Source: Thiotrichales bacterium | GTDB lineage: Bacteria; Pseudomonadota; Gammaproteobacteria; Thiomicrospirales; Thiomicrospiraceae | NCBI GenBank assembly: GCA_016938655.1 | Contig: JAFGUG010000011.1 | Span: 372,001 to 436,000, forward strand | Reading direction: 5' to 3' | Length of the DNA: 64,000 nt | Shown here: piece by piece, positions 3,488 to 63,036 of the stretch | Numbering within the stretch: position 1 is the stretch's first letter | Layout of the letters: each line of letters opens with the position of its first letter | Program-made: the position numbers and the translations under genes | The notes under the pieces: model-generated | Seen by the model: the letters and a program-made list of their open reading frames with translations, nothing else | Database searches by the model: none | Told to the model about the DNA's origin: nothing

Positions 3488-3771
3488 AGGCGGAAACTCC
3501 TTTTTGTATCCTGACCATTTAGTATAAGGCACTATTGCCTTGTTATCCGGTATTACCAGCCTTTTAACGGCTGTTTTCCTGCCTAATGAGTAAGCCGCTT
3601 GGTTTAACGGATTATGCAGTATTGACAGCTTTACCAGCAGTAAATTGTTCTAAGTATGGTACAGGAAAAGTCGGTTTTAATTGTGAATAAATACGTATTT
3701 TATTGGGGTGTAACAGAATTGTGATCGGAGATAGGAGTGGGGCTAGAATTTTAAACAGGCCTGTTTAAAAC

Positions 3772-3797
3772 CTTCGTGCTTTCGTGGCTTCGTGGTT
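3772..3797 (-). repeat. Solitary arm of the CACGAAG-unit repeat
   Basis: On the plus strand this reads as three CTTCGTG-type units ending in CTTCGTGGTT. By eye 24 of 26 positions match the right arm of the inverted-repeat element at 34313-34338. A palindrome variant (3755-3764) lies just upstream of it, as one does in the 34-kb copy, suggesting a decayed copy of the same element. Confidence 0.75.
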
Positions 3798-3847
3798 AAT
3801 TTAGAAACCTGCTAAGTTCTCTGAAATAGATACTATTAGAAAAATTA

Positions 3848-3857
3848 GCAGGCCTGC
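3848..3857. repeat. GCAGGCCTGC palindrome
   Basis: An exact copy of the iterated palindrome with the flanks TTA before and TTAGTTTTT after. It lies 7 bases past the stop of the minus-strand gene ending at 3865. Confidence 0.9.
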
Positions 3858-3864
3858 TTAGTTT

Positions 3865-4317
3865 TTAGGTGCGCGGAAACCAAGGTGATGTTTGAGCGTT
3901 CTCAAAAAGCACACGATACTGTTCTTTTAGGGTGTCGACTAAGTTACTCTCTGAAGCGCCAGGGCAGCCACCCAGTTCAAACAGTTTTTCGCTAAAGGCT
4001 TGGTTCACCGACTCTTTATAACCTCGTGTATCACGGTCGATATTGAGTTTGACAAAGTTATTGACGGTAATGCCGTATTTTCTTAAAAACAGACGGTTTA
4101 GTTCTTGAACCATTGTGGATAAGCTCACGCCACGACAACGTTTATTTAGATAATCGTATTGATAGGTGACTTCTACTAACTTAACGTGCAAGGCTTCACC
4201 GGTGAGTTGTTCAATGGGAAGGGTTGGCGCATTTTCCTCGTTACTGGATGCCGATAAAGGGACAAGCATGATGAAAACGAAGGTAAATAAAGGGACTAAT
4301 AACTGATGATATTTCAT
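3865..4317 (-). CDS. Secreted protein of unknown function
   Basis: Started at the Met that opens a signal peptide (MKYHQLLVPLFTFVF..., cleavage near SASS-NE), this is a 150-residue exported protein. A longer frame adds 25 residues without signal-like character and is not preferred, though neither start has a strong ribosome-binding site. The mature region is mainly helical in appearance, with a single Cys pair candidate (KRCRGV and GGCPGA). I do not recognise a family. It is flanked on both sides by GCAGGCCTGC palindromes (3848 and 4440) and is transcribed alone. Confidence 0.6.
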   Translation of the reverse strand: MKYHQLLVPLFTFVFIMLVPLSASSNEENAPTLPIEQLTGEALHVKLVEVTYQYDYLNKRCRGVSLSTMVQELNRLFLRKYGITVNNFVKLNIDRDTRGYKESVNQAFSEKLFELGGCPGASESNLVDTLKEQYRVLFENAQTSPWFPRT

Positions 4318-4439
4318 TCGAGTCAACAAGGTTGTGGGATGAAACACAAGTATAGCGTGTCTGTTGACGATGGAAAAGATTTTGCAGACCAAAGCGGTTA
4401 ACTCAACCTTATTAATGCACAGGTTTTAGATTGATTTGA

Positions 4440-4449
4440 GCAGGCCTGC
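4440..4449. repeat. GCAGGCCTGC palindrome
   Basis: An exact copy with TGA before and TGACTTTTT after, matching the extended flank pattern. It lies between the minus-strand gene starting at 4317 and the terminator at 4496. Confidence 0.9.
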
Positions 4450-4495
4450 TGACTTTTTAACGTGTTAAATTATAAGATTTGTTCTGCTTGAAACA

Positions 4496-60114: not shown

Positions 60115-60303
60115 ATGCTTGAAACCACCTTAATCGCGGCAATCGCTTTACTGTTTATCATGGAAGGGCTCTTACCTTTTATCTTTCCGAATTTCTGGAA
60201 AAAAATGATGAGAGAAGCGACTGAGTTACCCGAGACACAACTGCGTGTTATGGGGTTGCTAAGTATTACCGTCGGAATGCTGATCCTGTTATTTTTCAGC
60301 TAA
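60115..60303 (+). CDS. DUF2065 small membrane protein
   Basis: This 62-residue protein has two membrane segments (about 3-22 and 43-60) and the family pattern MEGLLPFIFPNFWKKMM followed by LRVMGLLSITVGMLILL. DUF2065 proteins often sit between hflC and hisZ or purA, as here. No ribosome-binding site is clear because the terminator stem lies just upstream. The function is unknown. Confidence 0.9.
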   Translation: MLETTLIAAIALLFIMEGLLPFIFPNFWKKMMREATELPETQLRVMGLLSITVGMLILLFFS

Positions 60304-60375
60304 AAAATCCATTTTGATTTAGAATATGACGGTTGTGCCGAATTTACATAATTGAATAAAGAAAAGAAGTTAAAC

Positions 60376-61539
60376 ATGCAACAATCTACGTGGTTCACGC
60401 CAGAGGGTTTAGAAGACCTGCTCCCACCGCAAGCCCAAAAATTAGAGACTTACCGTCGTAATTTAATTGACGGTTTTCGTTTGTCGGGTTACGACCTGAT
60501 TCTACCGCCGCTTGCTGAGTTCACTGATTCGTTATTAACTGGAACAGGCCAGCATCGTGCGACTGAAATGTGTCGATTTACCGACCAAGAGAGTGGCCGA
60601 ATGATGGGGGTTCGTGCAGATATGACGCCGCAAGTAGCGCGTGTTGTCAGCAATCGCTTAAAAGCAGCCGACAAAATCTCTCGTCTTTGCTATGTGGGTG
60701 AAGTTCTAAAAACTCGCAATAACAAAGCAAAAGGGTCTCGTAGTCCAATTCAAGTGGGTGCGGAACTGTTTGGTTATGAAGGTGTCGAAAGCGATATTGA
60801 AGTCATTGAGTTGATGCTTGAGAGCTTAAAAGGCATAGCGCTGCCTGATTTACAGATGAGTCTAGGTCATGTTGGCATTGTGGCTGAGTTGAGTAAGCTT
60901 GCCGGTCTTAGTGCAAATCAAGCGGCTTCATTGCGTAACATTTTAAAACGTAAAGCGATTCCTGAGTATCAAGAATGGTTAGCTGCAACGAGCCTACCTG
61001 CAAATGTTAAGCCTGCTTTTGAGGGGTTAATGTCATTAGCCGGTGATGCGCAAAACGTATTAGATAATGCAAAGTCATTGTTAGCAGGCCTGTCAGATAC
61101 TTTAGATGCTGCTCTTGAGCGGTTGCAAGCCGTGGTTTCACATATTGCCGCAACTCAAACGATTAATATTCACTTAGATCTCGCTGACATTCGTGGTTAT
61201 CACTATCACACCGGTGTGATTTTTGGTTGTTATAGTTCGCCTTTGCAATTGATCGCTAAGGGTGGTCGTTATGATGGCATTGGCGAAGAGTTTGGTTTAT
61301 CACTCCCCGCAACTGGATTCAGCTTAGATTTAAGAACCGCTTTAGATTTATTGCCGGATGCAGACGATGACCTTAAGGGGCAAGTTTTTGCGCCTGTGTT
61401 AGCAGATGCAGAATTGAAAGCTAAAATTGCAGAGTTAAGAGCACAAGGTTTTCAAGTTATTAGCAGCTACGATTTATCGGAAGTTGCCGCCGACGCTAAA
61501 AAATTAGTATCAGATGCGGGTCAGTGGTCGGTTAAATAA
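60376..61539 (+). CDS. hisZ: ATP phosphoribosyltransferase regulatory subunit HisZ
   Basis: HisZ is a paralogue of histidyl-tRNA synthetase that joins short-form HisG to make the first enzyme of histidine synthesis. The protein has 387 residues from the ATG at 60376; the TTG 8 codons earlier is less likely. Class II fold motifs are WFTPEGLEDLLPPQA, ATEMCRFTDQESGRMMGVRADMTPQVARVV and KGGRYDGIGEEFG. The C-terminal anticodon-binding domain is absent, as expected for HisZ. The hisG gene is not in the window. Confidence 0.93.
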   Translation: MQQSTWFTPEGLEDLLPPQAQKLETYRRNLIDGFRLSGYDLILPPLAEFTDSLLTGTGQHRATEMCRFTDQESGRMMGVRADMTPQVARVVSNRLKAADKISRLCYVGEVLKTRNNKAKGSRSPIQVGAELFGYEGVESDIEVIELMLESLKGIALPDLQMSLGHVGIVAELSKLAGLSANQAASLRNILKRKAIPEYQEWLAATSLPANVKPAFEGLMSLAGDAQNVLDNAKSLLAGLSDTLDAALERLQAVVSHIAATQTINIHLDLADIRGYHYHTGVIFGCYSSPLQLIAKGGRYDGIGEEFGLSLPATGFSLDLRTALDLLPDADDDLKGQVFAPVLADAELKAKIAELRAQGFQVISSYDLSEVAADAKKLVSDAGQWSVK

Positions 61540-61589
61540 TCGACCCCTGCAAATCATAAAATAGATTCATAAATTTTAAGAAGTTAGTT

Positions 61590-62909
61590 ATGTCAAAACG
61601 TAATATTGTTGTTGTAGGTACCCAATGGGGCGATGAAGGTAAAGGGAAGATTGTTGACCTTTTAACGGATCGCGTTGCTGCGGTGGTTCGCTTTCAAGGC
61701 GGACACAATGCAGGACATACTTTGGTTATTGATGGACAAAAAACAGTTTTACACCTTATTCCATCGGGTATTCTGCGTGAAGACGTAGAGTGCTTCATTG
61801 GTAATGGTGTGGTGCTTGCACCAGATGCACTTGAAAAAGAGGTGCTTCAGCTTGAAGCTACCGGCTTAAATGTTCAAAGTCGTCTTAAAATCAGTGATGC
61901 TTGCCCACTTATTTTGGATTACCACGTTGCATTAGACCAAGCACGTGAAATTGCGCGTGGTGCTAAAAAAATTGGAACCACTGGTCGTGGAATTGGGCCT
62001 GCCTATGAAGATAAGGTTGCACGTCGCGGTCTTCGAGCGGGTGATTTTAAAAACATGCCTGCCATGAAAGTCAAACTCGCTGAAACCTTGGCTTACCATA
62101 ACTTCACACTCGAGCACTACTTCAAAGTAGAACCCGTTGATTTTGATCAACTTTGGGCGAAATGTGAGCGTTATGCCAAGATGATTATTCCGATGTTAGC
62201 GGATATCCCGAACCTGATTGATGTTTACAATCGTGAAGGTAAAAACCTCATGTTTGAAGGCGCTCAAGGCACCTTATTAGATATCGACCATGGAACCTAT
62301 CCTTATGTTACTTCGTCTAACACCACCGCTGGTGGTGCTGGACCCGGTGCGGGTATTGGGCCAACCAATCTCGATTACATCTTGGGAATTACCAAAGCCT
62401 ATGCAACGCGTGTTGGTAGTGGACCTTTTCCATCGGAACTTGCCTATGACTGTGACACAGACCAAGGTGATCCGATTGGTAAAGAGTTAGGAAATCGAGG
62501 ACGTGAGTTTGGAGCGACAACAGGCCGTCAACGTCGTTGTGGTTGGTTTGATTCAGTTGCGTTACGCCGTTCAGCACAAATTAACGGTTTAACCGGTATG
62601 TGTTTAACTAAGTTAGATGTTATGGATACCTTAACGGAAATTAAAATCTGTACCTCTTACTCCATGAACGGTGAAACCTTAATGCTGCCACCGTCAAGTG
62701 CTGACGAGTACGATGTTTGTGTACCAAATTATGTCACGATGCCGGGTTGGAATACTTCTACCGTCGGGATTGAGTCTTGGGATGCCTTGCCACAAGAAGC
62801 AAAAGATTACATTCGTTTTCTAGAAGCCGAAGTAGGCGTGCCAGTTTCGATTTTATCAACTGGCCCTGATCGTTCAGAAACCTTGGTTATTACCGACCCA
62901 TTCGTTTAA
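61590..62909 (+). CDS. purA: Adenylosuccinate synthetase
   Basis: PurA joins IMP and aspartate using GTP, the first committed step to AMP. The 439-residue protein has the GTP/IMP loop [16 protein letters not shown] (residues 10-25), [20 protein letters not shown], and [11 protein letters not shown]. All expected catalytic residues (Asp and His of these loops) are present. It follows hisZ by 50 bases and is followed by a terminator. Confidence 0.97.
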
Positions 62910-62943
62910 ATCAATTACGTTTTCAACGAAATCCAAAATCACT

Positions 62944-62974
62944 CGATCTAATTTAGTTAGCTCGGGTTTTTTTA
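62944..62974 (+). terminator. Probable terminator after purA
   Basis: CGATCTAA and TTAGCTCG pair with one mismatch around a five-base loop, followed by GGTTTTTTT. Confidence 0.7.
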
Positions 62975-63014
62975 TGTCTGCGTTTTAAGGACGGGTTACG
63001 TTTTAATGATTTAG

Positions 63015-63036
63015 AAGTGAGCAGGCCTGCTCACTT
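63015..63036. repeat. Extended GCAGGCCTGC palindrome
   Basis: The core at 63021-63030 is extended by AAGTGA on the left and TCACTT on the right, making a perfect 22-bp palindrome followed by TTAG. It lies 106 bases after purA. Confidence 0.9.

Follow-up and report, generated by a model that had tools for sequence, protein, structure and literature searches.

A 64,000-nucleotide stretch of the genome of a Thiotrichales bacterium (GenBank assembly GCA_016938655.1, contig JAFGUG010000011.1, forward-strand positions 372,001 to 436,000; C63:372001-436000 of genome G000 in our numbering, and hereafter "the window") carries a highly iterated palindrome that recurs, with species dialects, among members of its genus (Thiomicrorhabdus in the GTDB sense) and that is probably, though far from certainly, a palindromic DNA uptake sequence. 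The element has an 8-mer palindromic core, CAGGCCTG, which is found within the 10-mer GCAGGCCTGC and, in the form proper to this species, within the 12-mer AGCAGGCCTGCT. The 18 starts that an initial annotation of the window had given for GCAGGCCTGC were all exact, as were the 12 further starts given for CAGGCCTG, so that the window contains 30 cores. In 100 shuffled versions of the window the 10-mer occurred 0.07 times on average (maximum 1) and the core 0.58 times (maximum 4).

The excess extends well beyond the window. The complete assembly (2,933,684 bp in 108 contigs) contains 596 copies of GCAGGCCTGC, 1173 of CAGGCCTG, and 411 of AGCAGGCCTGCT, and the reversed, non-complemented control patterns occur 0, 2, and 0 times, respectively. 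In a 464-kb sample of this genome (the window, C63:1-360000, and C3:1-40000), from which the figures for this species given below are taken unless stated otherwise, we counted 200 copies of CAGGCCTG against 4.5 expected from an order-1 Markov model, or one per 2.3 kb, and 106 copies of GCAGGCCTGC against 0.34 expected; the next-highest count among the twelve most enriched palindromic 10-mers listed was 9. The density of the core is about 400 per Mb. Chance or base composition as the cause is ruled out by the shuffles, the Markov expectation, and the reversed patterns, and an artefact confined to the window is ruled out by the genome-wide copies of the 10-mer. The genome-wide and Markov counts therefore exclude both a count near expectation and an excess restricted to the window, and the claim of an excess of this kind holds. 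The assembly is rated 7.72% contaminated, and some contigs may come from other species.

Cores are spaced nearly at random in the 360-kb stretch of C63 (coefficient of variation 0.92). The 464-kb sample contains six spacings of 19–35 bp, and 21 spacings fall below 200 bp, against 16.3 expected. Two pairs of sites in the window are 24–26 bp apart, at 19675–19710 (copies of GCAGGCCTGC at 19675..19684 and 19701..19710, spaced by 26 bp) and at 22276–22309 (22276..22285 and 22300..22309, spaced by 24 bp).

Alignment of the 200 cores on both strands revealed a longer symmetric consensus, TTT-n-AAA-n-T-n-A-G-CAGGCCTG-C-T-n-A-n-TTT-n-AAA, in which G is present at position -1 in 74% of copies, A at -2 in 80%, and T at -4 in 66%; farther out, A reaches 61–67% at -8 to -6 and T reaches 39–45% at -12 to -10. 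The near-invariant core is thus bordered by a softer edge (AG/CT in this genome) and by an A tract whose centre is about 10.5 bp, or about one helical turn, from the dyad. Compared with copies within genes, those outside called genes are nearer to the consensus, the A/T flanks are strongest outside genes, and A tracts are also found in the elements of relatives. The initial annotation had treated the 10-mer as the unit; this word is real but too small, as the full element is longer and partly degenerate and the 10-mer is the form that it takes in one species.

We counted cores in the 62 genomes of the family, including the genome under study, and found a bimodal distribution: 32 genomes carry 236–1173 cores (termed site-rich here) and 30 carry 0–74 (site-poor). 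The site-rich share is 15/32 in the genus to which the window belongs and 7/11, 9/9, 1/1, 0/4, 0/4, and 0/1 in the other genera. None of 365 sampled members of the class outside the family exceeds about 82 cores per Mb, the densest having 338 in 4.1 Mb (sizes rounded). On a MutL tree of the genus that lacks only G007 and G016 and so has 30 of its 32 members, the site-rich label, carried by 14 rows, takes 5 changes, and 0 of 500 shuffles gave so low a number. An ancient element that was lost or replaced several times would be consistent with this pattern. Viral contigs contained no match to the full extended word in two dialects and gave no match in a sensor-kinase protein search.

The initial annotation had called for a comparison with related genomes, and this comparison showed that the excess is present in relatives, with species dialects around a conserved core. 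Dialects were counted in 40–140 kb per genome. In the genome of the window, the edges AGC...GCT (the 12-mer AGCAGGCCTGCT) are present on 82 of 200 cores and ACC...GGT on 1 of 200. The ACC...GGT form, ACCAGGCCTGGT, accounts for 18/26 cores in G018, 27/52 in G042, 10/25 in G021, 27/44 in G008, 7/12 in G015, 11/18 in G014, 15/28 in G040, and 6/21 in G009. AGC...GCT is absent from the sampled stretches of G018, G008, and G042 and occurs twice in that of G009. Another form, AACAGGCCTGTT, is the commonest symmetric one in G005 (6/42) and G017 (5/29). The edges in G041 are mixed. Not one of its 44 sampled cores is bordered on both sides by AG, AC, AA, or AT, and a single core has GG/CC. Genome-wide, AGCAGGCCTGCT is found 16–30 times each in G005, G041, G017, and G009. 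In G084, a further member of the family, 11 cores were counted in 20 kb, and 2 of these have the edges ACC...GGT.

In some site-poor members of the genus, the core itself has been exchanged. G023 carries another core, with ACCGGCCGGT present 27 times in 60 kb and accompanied by the same A tracts. G020 carries an asymmetric word, AAAACTCAACAGG|CCGGGT, whose 12-mer AACAGGCCGGGT has 13 copies in 80 kb; CTCAACAGG is followed by CCGGGT in 9 of 9 cases. In its sister G004, 14.3 kb contain 8 copies of the core CAGGCCGG. G013, G024, G019, G012, G010, G046, and G011 (40–60 kb sampled from each) showed no palindromic 8-mer enriched to a similar degree, which indicates that the genus can live without the element. 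In G003 (C1:200001-260000), CGATATCG occurs 12 times in 60 kb against 0.9 expected; it lacks A/T flanks and was not counted as a variant. Besides those seven genomes, G003 and G023 were sampled at 40–60 kb. The other site-poor samples comprised 100 kb (G020), 34 kb (G022), 20 kb (G045), and 16 kb (G043), and the smallest were G004 (14 kb counted), G016 (8 kb counted), and G044 and G001 (the 5-kb mutL locus only). Non-palindromic 8-mers are also over-represented in site-poor genomes, at up to 20 per 60 kb.

The comEC-mutL region allowed us to follow individual sites between species, as each of six site-rich congeners has 36–41 reciprocal best hits with the window there, at a mean protein identity of 71–73%. 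The alignment runs without a gap through in-gene sites in 399 of 416 ordered comparisons, and all 8 bases are retained in 174 of the 399. When each pair was counted once, 87 of 312 in-gene sites were exact in both species, compared with 4.3% of GC-matched 8-mers (2122 of 49156); among GC-rich palindromes and among windows coding for the same peptides, the counts were 28 of 1166 and 5 of 463, respectively. The difference persisted where the amino acids are identical (77/153 sites exact, against 1977/22114 GC-matched 8-mers, 27/482 GC-rich palindromes, and 4/213 same-peptide windows). For the control 8-mers, we used every gene pair in which at least one species has a site, and about half of the pairs without a site. 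Because the alignments are gapless and conservation is in excess, we conclude that in-gene sites were made by substitution and are held by selection or drive, at silent positions as well. Between genes, both species have a site in 15 of 268 shared gaps, where 4.7 such cases were expected; the 268 gaps pool 21 species pairs and are not independent. These alignments bear directly on the idea of an inserted mobile repeat of the REP or MITE kind. The palindrome is dispersed and has many extra-genic copies, as such a repeat would, but orthologues align through the site without gaps, the flanks are degenerate, and there is no longer repeat unit; we regard an inserted repeat as scarcely credible.

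The same upkeep bears on the main alternative to an uptake role, namely that the word is the site of a dimeric chromosome-organising protein (a nucleoid protein, an SMC loader, or a replication or repair mark) that is needed every 2–3 kb and kept at each place by selection. Sites are strongly maintained at orthologous places, as this alternative would predict. Both halves of the palindrome are also needed: the half-site AAnTnAGCAGG, found 126 times (counted on both strands, so that a full site may count twice), is followed by CCTG in 111 cases. The A/T tracts about one turn from the dyad would suit a bent or wrapped dimer site, and cores that are one base off are rare in this genome. However, the edges of hundreds of copies differ within one genus and two lineages have another core, changes that would be hard for a structural protein to bring about without a copying drive. 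In addition, the G020 word is asymmetric, and the seven site-poor members named above do without a comparable palindromic 8-mer. We therefore consider a chromosome-organising site unlikely, while giving it serious attention; were it correct, a chromosome-wide mark that switches sequence between congeners would be equally unexpected.

We then consider where the sites lie relative to genes. Gene calls came from a home-made ORF chooser, and some "gaps" of more than 1 kb are probably missed genes. By these calls, 94 of the 200 cores are outside genes, in 16% of the sequence, and 106 are inside genes, in the remaining 84%. Gaps between convergent genes contain 32 sites in 14.9 kb, and gaps between divergent genes contain 10 in 14.3 kb (binomial p 0.0007). 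At least 7 extra complementary pairs extend the palindrome at 8 of the 32 convergent sites, compared with 3 of 165 others (3 edge sites were left out), which indicates that a subset of sites could form two-way terminators.

Could the palindrome be a terminator module altogether, a transcription-ending hairpin whose in-gene copies are by-products? The concentration of cores outside genes, above all in convergent gaps, is what such a module would give, and among the 82 own 12-mers complementarity exceeds expectation at -3/+3 (35 vs 21.7) and at -5/+5 (29 vs 20.3). Yet more than half of the cores are in genes, where they are kept across species, most sites have stems of 0–2 extra pairs, and the choice of -1 base in one half shows no dependence on that in the other, in this genome and in five relatives. 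When we scanned positions 20000–35999 of the window for terminators, 1 of 12 sites was terminator-like (the hairpin at 29634–29657, which contains the GCAGGCCTGC copy at 29641..29650 in a convergent gap), and there were 24 hits overall against 20.4 expected in shuffles. A terminator as the primary function is thus very improbable.

DNA acquired from elsewhere is poor in the word, an observation that rests on two examples. The first 20 kb of the second contig of G018 matches plasmid pTmrp1 of Thiomicrorhabdus aquaedulcis HaS4 without a difference, which is the basis for assigning the genus of the window to Thiomicrorhabdus; this 96.8-kb plasmid has 7 cores, against 43.6 predicted from the density on the T. 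aquaedulcis chromosome. An insertion of about 36.7 kb (C1:51330-88060) interrupts the comEC of G020; within this insertion, the 11-mer ACAGGCCGGGT occurs 0 times against 10.4 predicted and CAGGCCGG 4 times against 20.9 predicted. A gene for a Dam-type methyltransferase (PF02086) is near one end of the insertion, and it is probable that a mobile element hit the competence channel gene of G020. With 10 cores in its first 20 kb, the second contig of G015 (443 kb) matches a chromosome in density. The largest core-free stretch of the 360-kb sample, C63:182-12510 (12.3 kb, GC 38%), contains an MSHA-like pilus operon (genes for a secretin, an MshE-type ATPase, T2SSF, and a TPR protein) followed by rmuC, and was perhaps acquired.

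ComEC is the DNA import channel of natural transformation, and the intact comEC noted in the window is indeed present, at 12360..14915 on the + strand. The gene encodes 851 amino acids and matches NCBIfam TIGR00361 at 364.5 bits (cut-off 190.05) and Pfam PF03772. One copy of GCAGGCCTGC (12432..12441) is within its reading frame. Among the 15 site-rich genomes of the genus, this one included, comEC is full length and open in 14, and in the fifteenth, G006, it is in pieces on two contigs.

From these observations we infer a scheme of receptor binding, biased uptake, drive, and, at some sites, termination itself. A surface receptor of the competence pilus would bind a word of about 12 bp, made up of the core CAGGCCTG and a species-specific edge, and the A/T tracts about one helical turn away may assist this binding. 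DNA that bears the word would be pulled in and handed to ComEC, and the imported DNA would recombine into the chromosome, so that copies of the word could spread and repair themselves by molecular drive. A shift in the taste of the receptor would then slowly rewrite the copies and produce species dialects, and a copy between convergent genes might also come to serve in a terminator that stops transcription from both sides. Of the explanations considered, uptake best accounts jointly for the dialects, the core switches, and the asymmetry of the G020 word.

The initial annotation had likened the palindrome to uptake sequences and to the cyanobacterial HIP1. The comparison is apt, and a role in uptake is supported by the dialects, the AT-rich flanks, the possible use in terminators, the kept sites born by substitution, the scarcity in foreign DNA, and the intact comEC, although the presence of comEC proved not to be discriminating. 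Like the DNA uptake sequence (DUS) of Neisseriaceae and the uptake signal sequence (USS) of Pasteurellaceae, the element has hundreds to a thousand copies, both genic and intergenic, with a conserved inner core and species dialects, a possible link to terminators, and a competence channel in the same genome, and it shares AT-rich flanks with the USS. It differs from both in being a palindrome flanked on both sides (with one lineage asymmetric) and in belonging to another gammaproteobacterial family, in which a role in uptake is proposed on genomic grounds. In Campylobacter jejuni, methylated RAATTY is a palindromic self-DNA mark for uptake that depends on an orphan methyltransferase. The present element would likewise be a palindromic self-DNA word, but no methyltransferase among the three families searched (see below) is common to the genomes that carry it.

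Several observations weigh against a role in uptake. First, neither Neisseriaceae nor Pasteurellaceae have palindromic uptake words. The sharpness of the core is a second point. Near-copies of the 12-mer in this genome comprise 82 exact copies, 63 with a single change in the edges (two positions per side), and 4 with a single change in the core (four positions per side), so that the core is nearly all-or-none. The excess of one-off copies per exact copy is 0.04 for the 8-mer in this genome, 0.01 for the pooled ACC dialect, and 0.05 for CCGGCCGG in G023. Single relatives gave -0.39 to 0.37 for their 8-mers, on small counts, and 10-mers that include one edge base gave 0.82 (this genome) and 0.38; the measure varies with word length and dialect. 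Control values were 0.43 for the Hin-USS (58 exact copies against 0.47 expected in 65 kb), 1.94 for the Apl-USS (20 against 0.45 in 65 kb), 0.12 for the Neisseria dentiae DUS (29 against 0.04 in 22 kb), and 10.85 for the same DUS in a second Neisseria, which has 3 exact and 34 one-off copies and presumably carries another DUS dialect. By this measure, one-off core variants are rarer in this genome than for the USS, and the core is closer in its sharpness to the N. dentiae DUS. A core as sharp as this might reflect selection on every site for some function at its own locus. Third, the sharing of intergenic sites is weak for the genome of the window, which is involved in just one of the 15 shared cases.

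The competence genes supply further counterevidence. Since 12 of the 17 site-poor genomes of the genus have an open comEC as well, the gene does not discriminate between site-rich and site-poor genomes. Among the other site-poor genomes, it is split over two contigs in G001 and interrupted in G020, was not found in G004 (92% complete, 520 contigs) or G045 (79% complete), and was seen in G046 (99% complete) only as an 82-residue match (E 1.1e-4). G020 and G004 have a dense variant word without a working comEC in the assembly, and comEC and the word are not associated when counted in this way. Minor pilins of the GspH type (PF12019; other pilin families were not searched) were found in 3 of the 32 genomes of the genus, all site-poor and just over the cut-off. 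Finally, we found no report that ties Thiomicrospira, Thiomicrorhabdus, or Hydrogenovibrio to transformation or uptake words in a literature search mostly without subscription journals.

We also considered comEC loss as a natural experiment. Four site-poor genomes and no site-rich genome lack a working comEC (Fisher p 0.066, 30 of 32 genomes; G006 and G001, in which the gene is split over contigs, were left out). We rejected this association because of the dense variant word in G020 and G004, the incomplete assemblies of G004 and G045, and the non-independence of the rows. A pattern search of the G000 stretches for prepilins, DprA, PilT, PilB, ComM, ComF, and PilQ returned one PilB/MshE-type ATPase, which belongs to the MSHA-like pilus locus at C63:279-12477; the empty result for the others means little.

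Methylation was the remaining candidate cause. Of the 32 genomes of the genus, 15 have a match over the cut-off to PF00145, 9 to PF01555, and 5 to PF02086. Six site-rich genomes (G040, G041, G014, G017, G009, and G021) have no match to any of these three families; five are 99–100% complete and G009 is 86% complete, and other methyltransferase families, e.g., PF02384 and PF07669, were not searched. These three families therefore cannot be the general cause of the element, and the methyltransferase target that the initial annotation had offered as an alternative loses ground. As a cause, a cytosine or Dam-type methyltransferase is not supported, and adenine methylation is not fully excluded by a search that did not extend to PF02384 and PF07669. 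In the genome of the window, methylation of the word is possible, as four C5 methyltransferases (one on C11, two on C97, and one on C99, two of the four being adjacent) and two PF01555 matches are encoded there.

These enzymes could serve an element of the HIP1 type, made and kept by methylation of its core (AGGCCT or GGCC) coupled to biased repair. HIP1 (GCGATCGC) and the alternate cyanobacterial HIPs resemble the present element in being highly iterated GC-rich palindromes that are replaced in some relatives and vary mostly at their edges. HIP1 as described by Elhai 2015 (PMC4390886) is a word of this kind that recurs hundreds of times per Mb, with a fixed interior and edges that vary. The density quoted there for HIPs, 500–2500 per Mb, is higher than that of the core here. 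Unlike HIP1, the present element has extended A/T flanks and is abundant in the six genomes without the three methyltransferase families. Outside the 8-mer, AGGCCT is just mildly raised, at 94 copies in 464 kb against about 71 expected, and the G020 variant is not palindromic. We conclude that a HIP1-type origin is improbable.

In the portions of Bakkali 2007 (PMC1939737) and of the ComN/USS paper (PMC12616744) that we drew on, two bacterial families, Neisseriaceae and Pasteurellaceae, are named as having uptake words. We put at roughly even odds the broader proposal that the family of Thiomicrorhabdus is a third, independent lineage that recognises self DNA in transformation, by a palindromic word, and that its taste has shifted repeatedly, including shifts to the core CCGGCCGG and to the asymmetric AACAGGCCGGGT. 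If this is so, one genus would show how an uptake dialect is born and how it changes. A third family, of free-living chemoautotrophs with a palindromic word and visible dialect changes, would also make it possible to test how such signals originate, whether molecular drive is enough to explain them, and how the receptor and the genome evolve together. The literature search mentioned above gave no earlier report of CAGGCCTG or GCAGGCCTGC as an element in Thiomicrospira, Thiomicrorhabdus, or Hydrogenovibrio.

The remaining sites in the window, all exact matches, are distributed as follows. Copies of GCAGGCCTGC with the edges of the 12-mer AGCAGGCCTGCT are at 3848..3857, 4440..4449, 11716..11725, 31923..31932, 42669..42678, and, downstream of purA, 63021..63030. 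Other copies of GCAGGCCTGC are at 7080..7089, 25245..25254, 27237..27246, 30226..30235, 34282..34291, and, within the rnfC frame, 46916..46925. The core CAGGCCTG has the edges AA/TT at 3756..3763 and is also present at 19046..19053, 22687..22694, 29433..29440, and 35082..35089; it is within the glnS frame at 33522..33529, within other reading frames at 39284..39291, 39903..39910, and 61085..61092, in a convergent gene gap at 40447..40454, and near the start of a frame divergent from mutL at 52813..52820. The core at 55665..55672 is in the gene after mutL, which we take to be miaA from its Q-A-W motif; the core is read as Q-A-W and is seemingly at the same place in several congeners.

Other words were also noted in the 464-kb sample. 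The non-palindromic CTCTTC, AAGAGATT, and ATCTCTTC are 2.7- to 6.5-fold above expectation. Counted on both strands, there are nine words of the AACCACGAAGAC type and 13 copies of CATAAAAAAACC.

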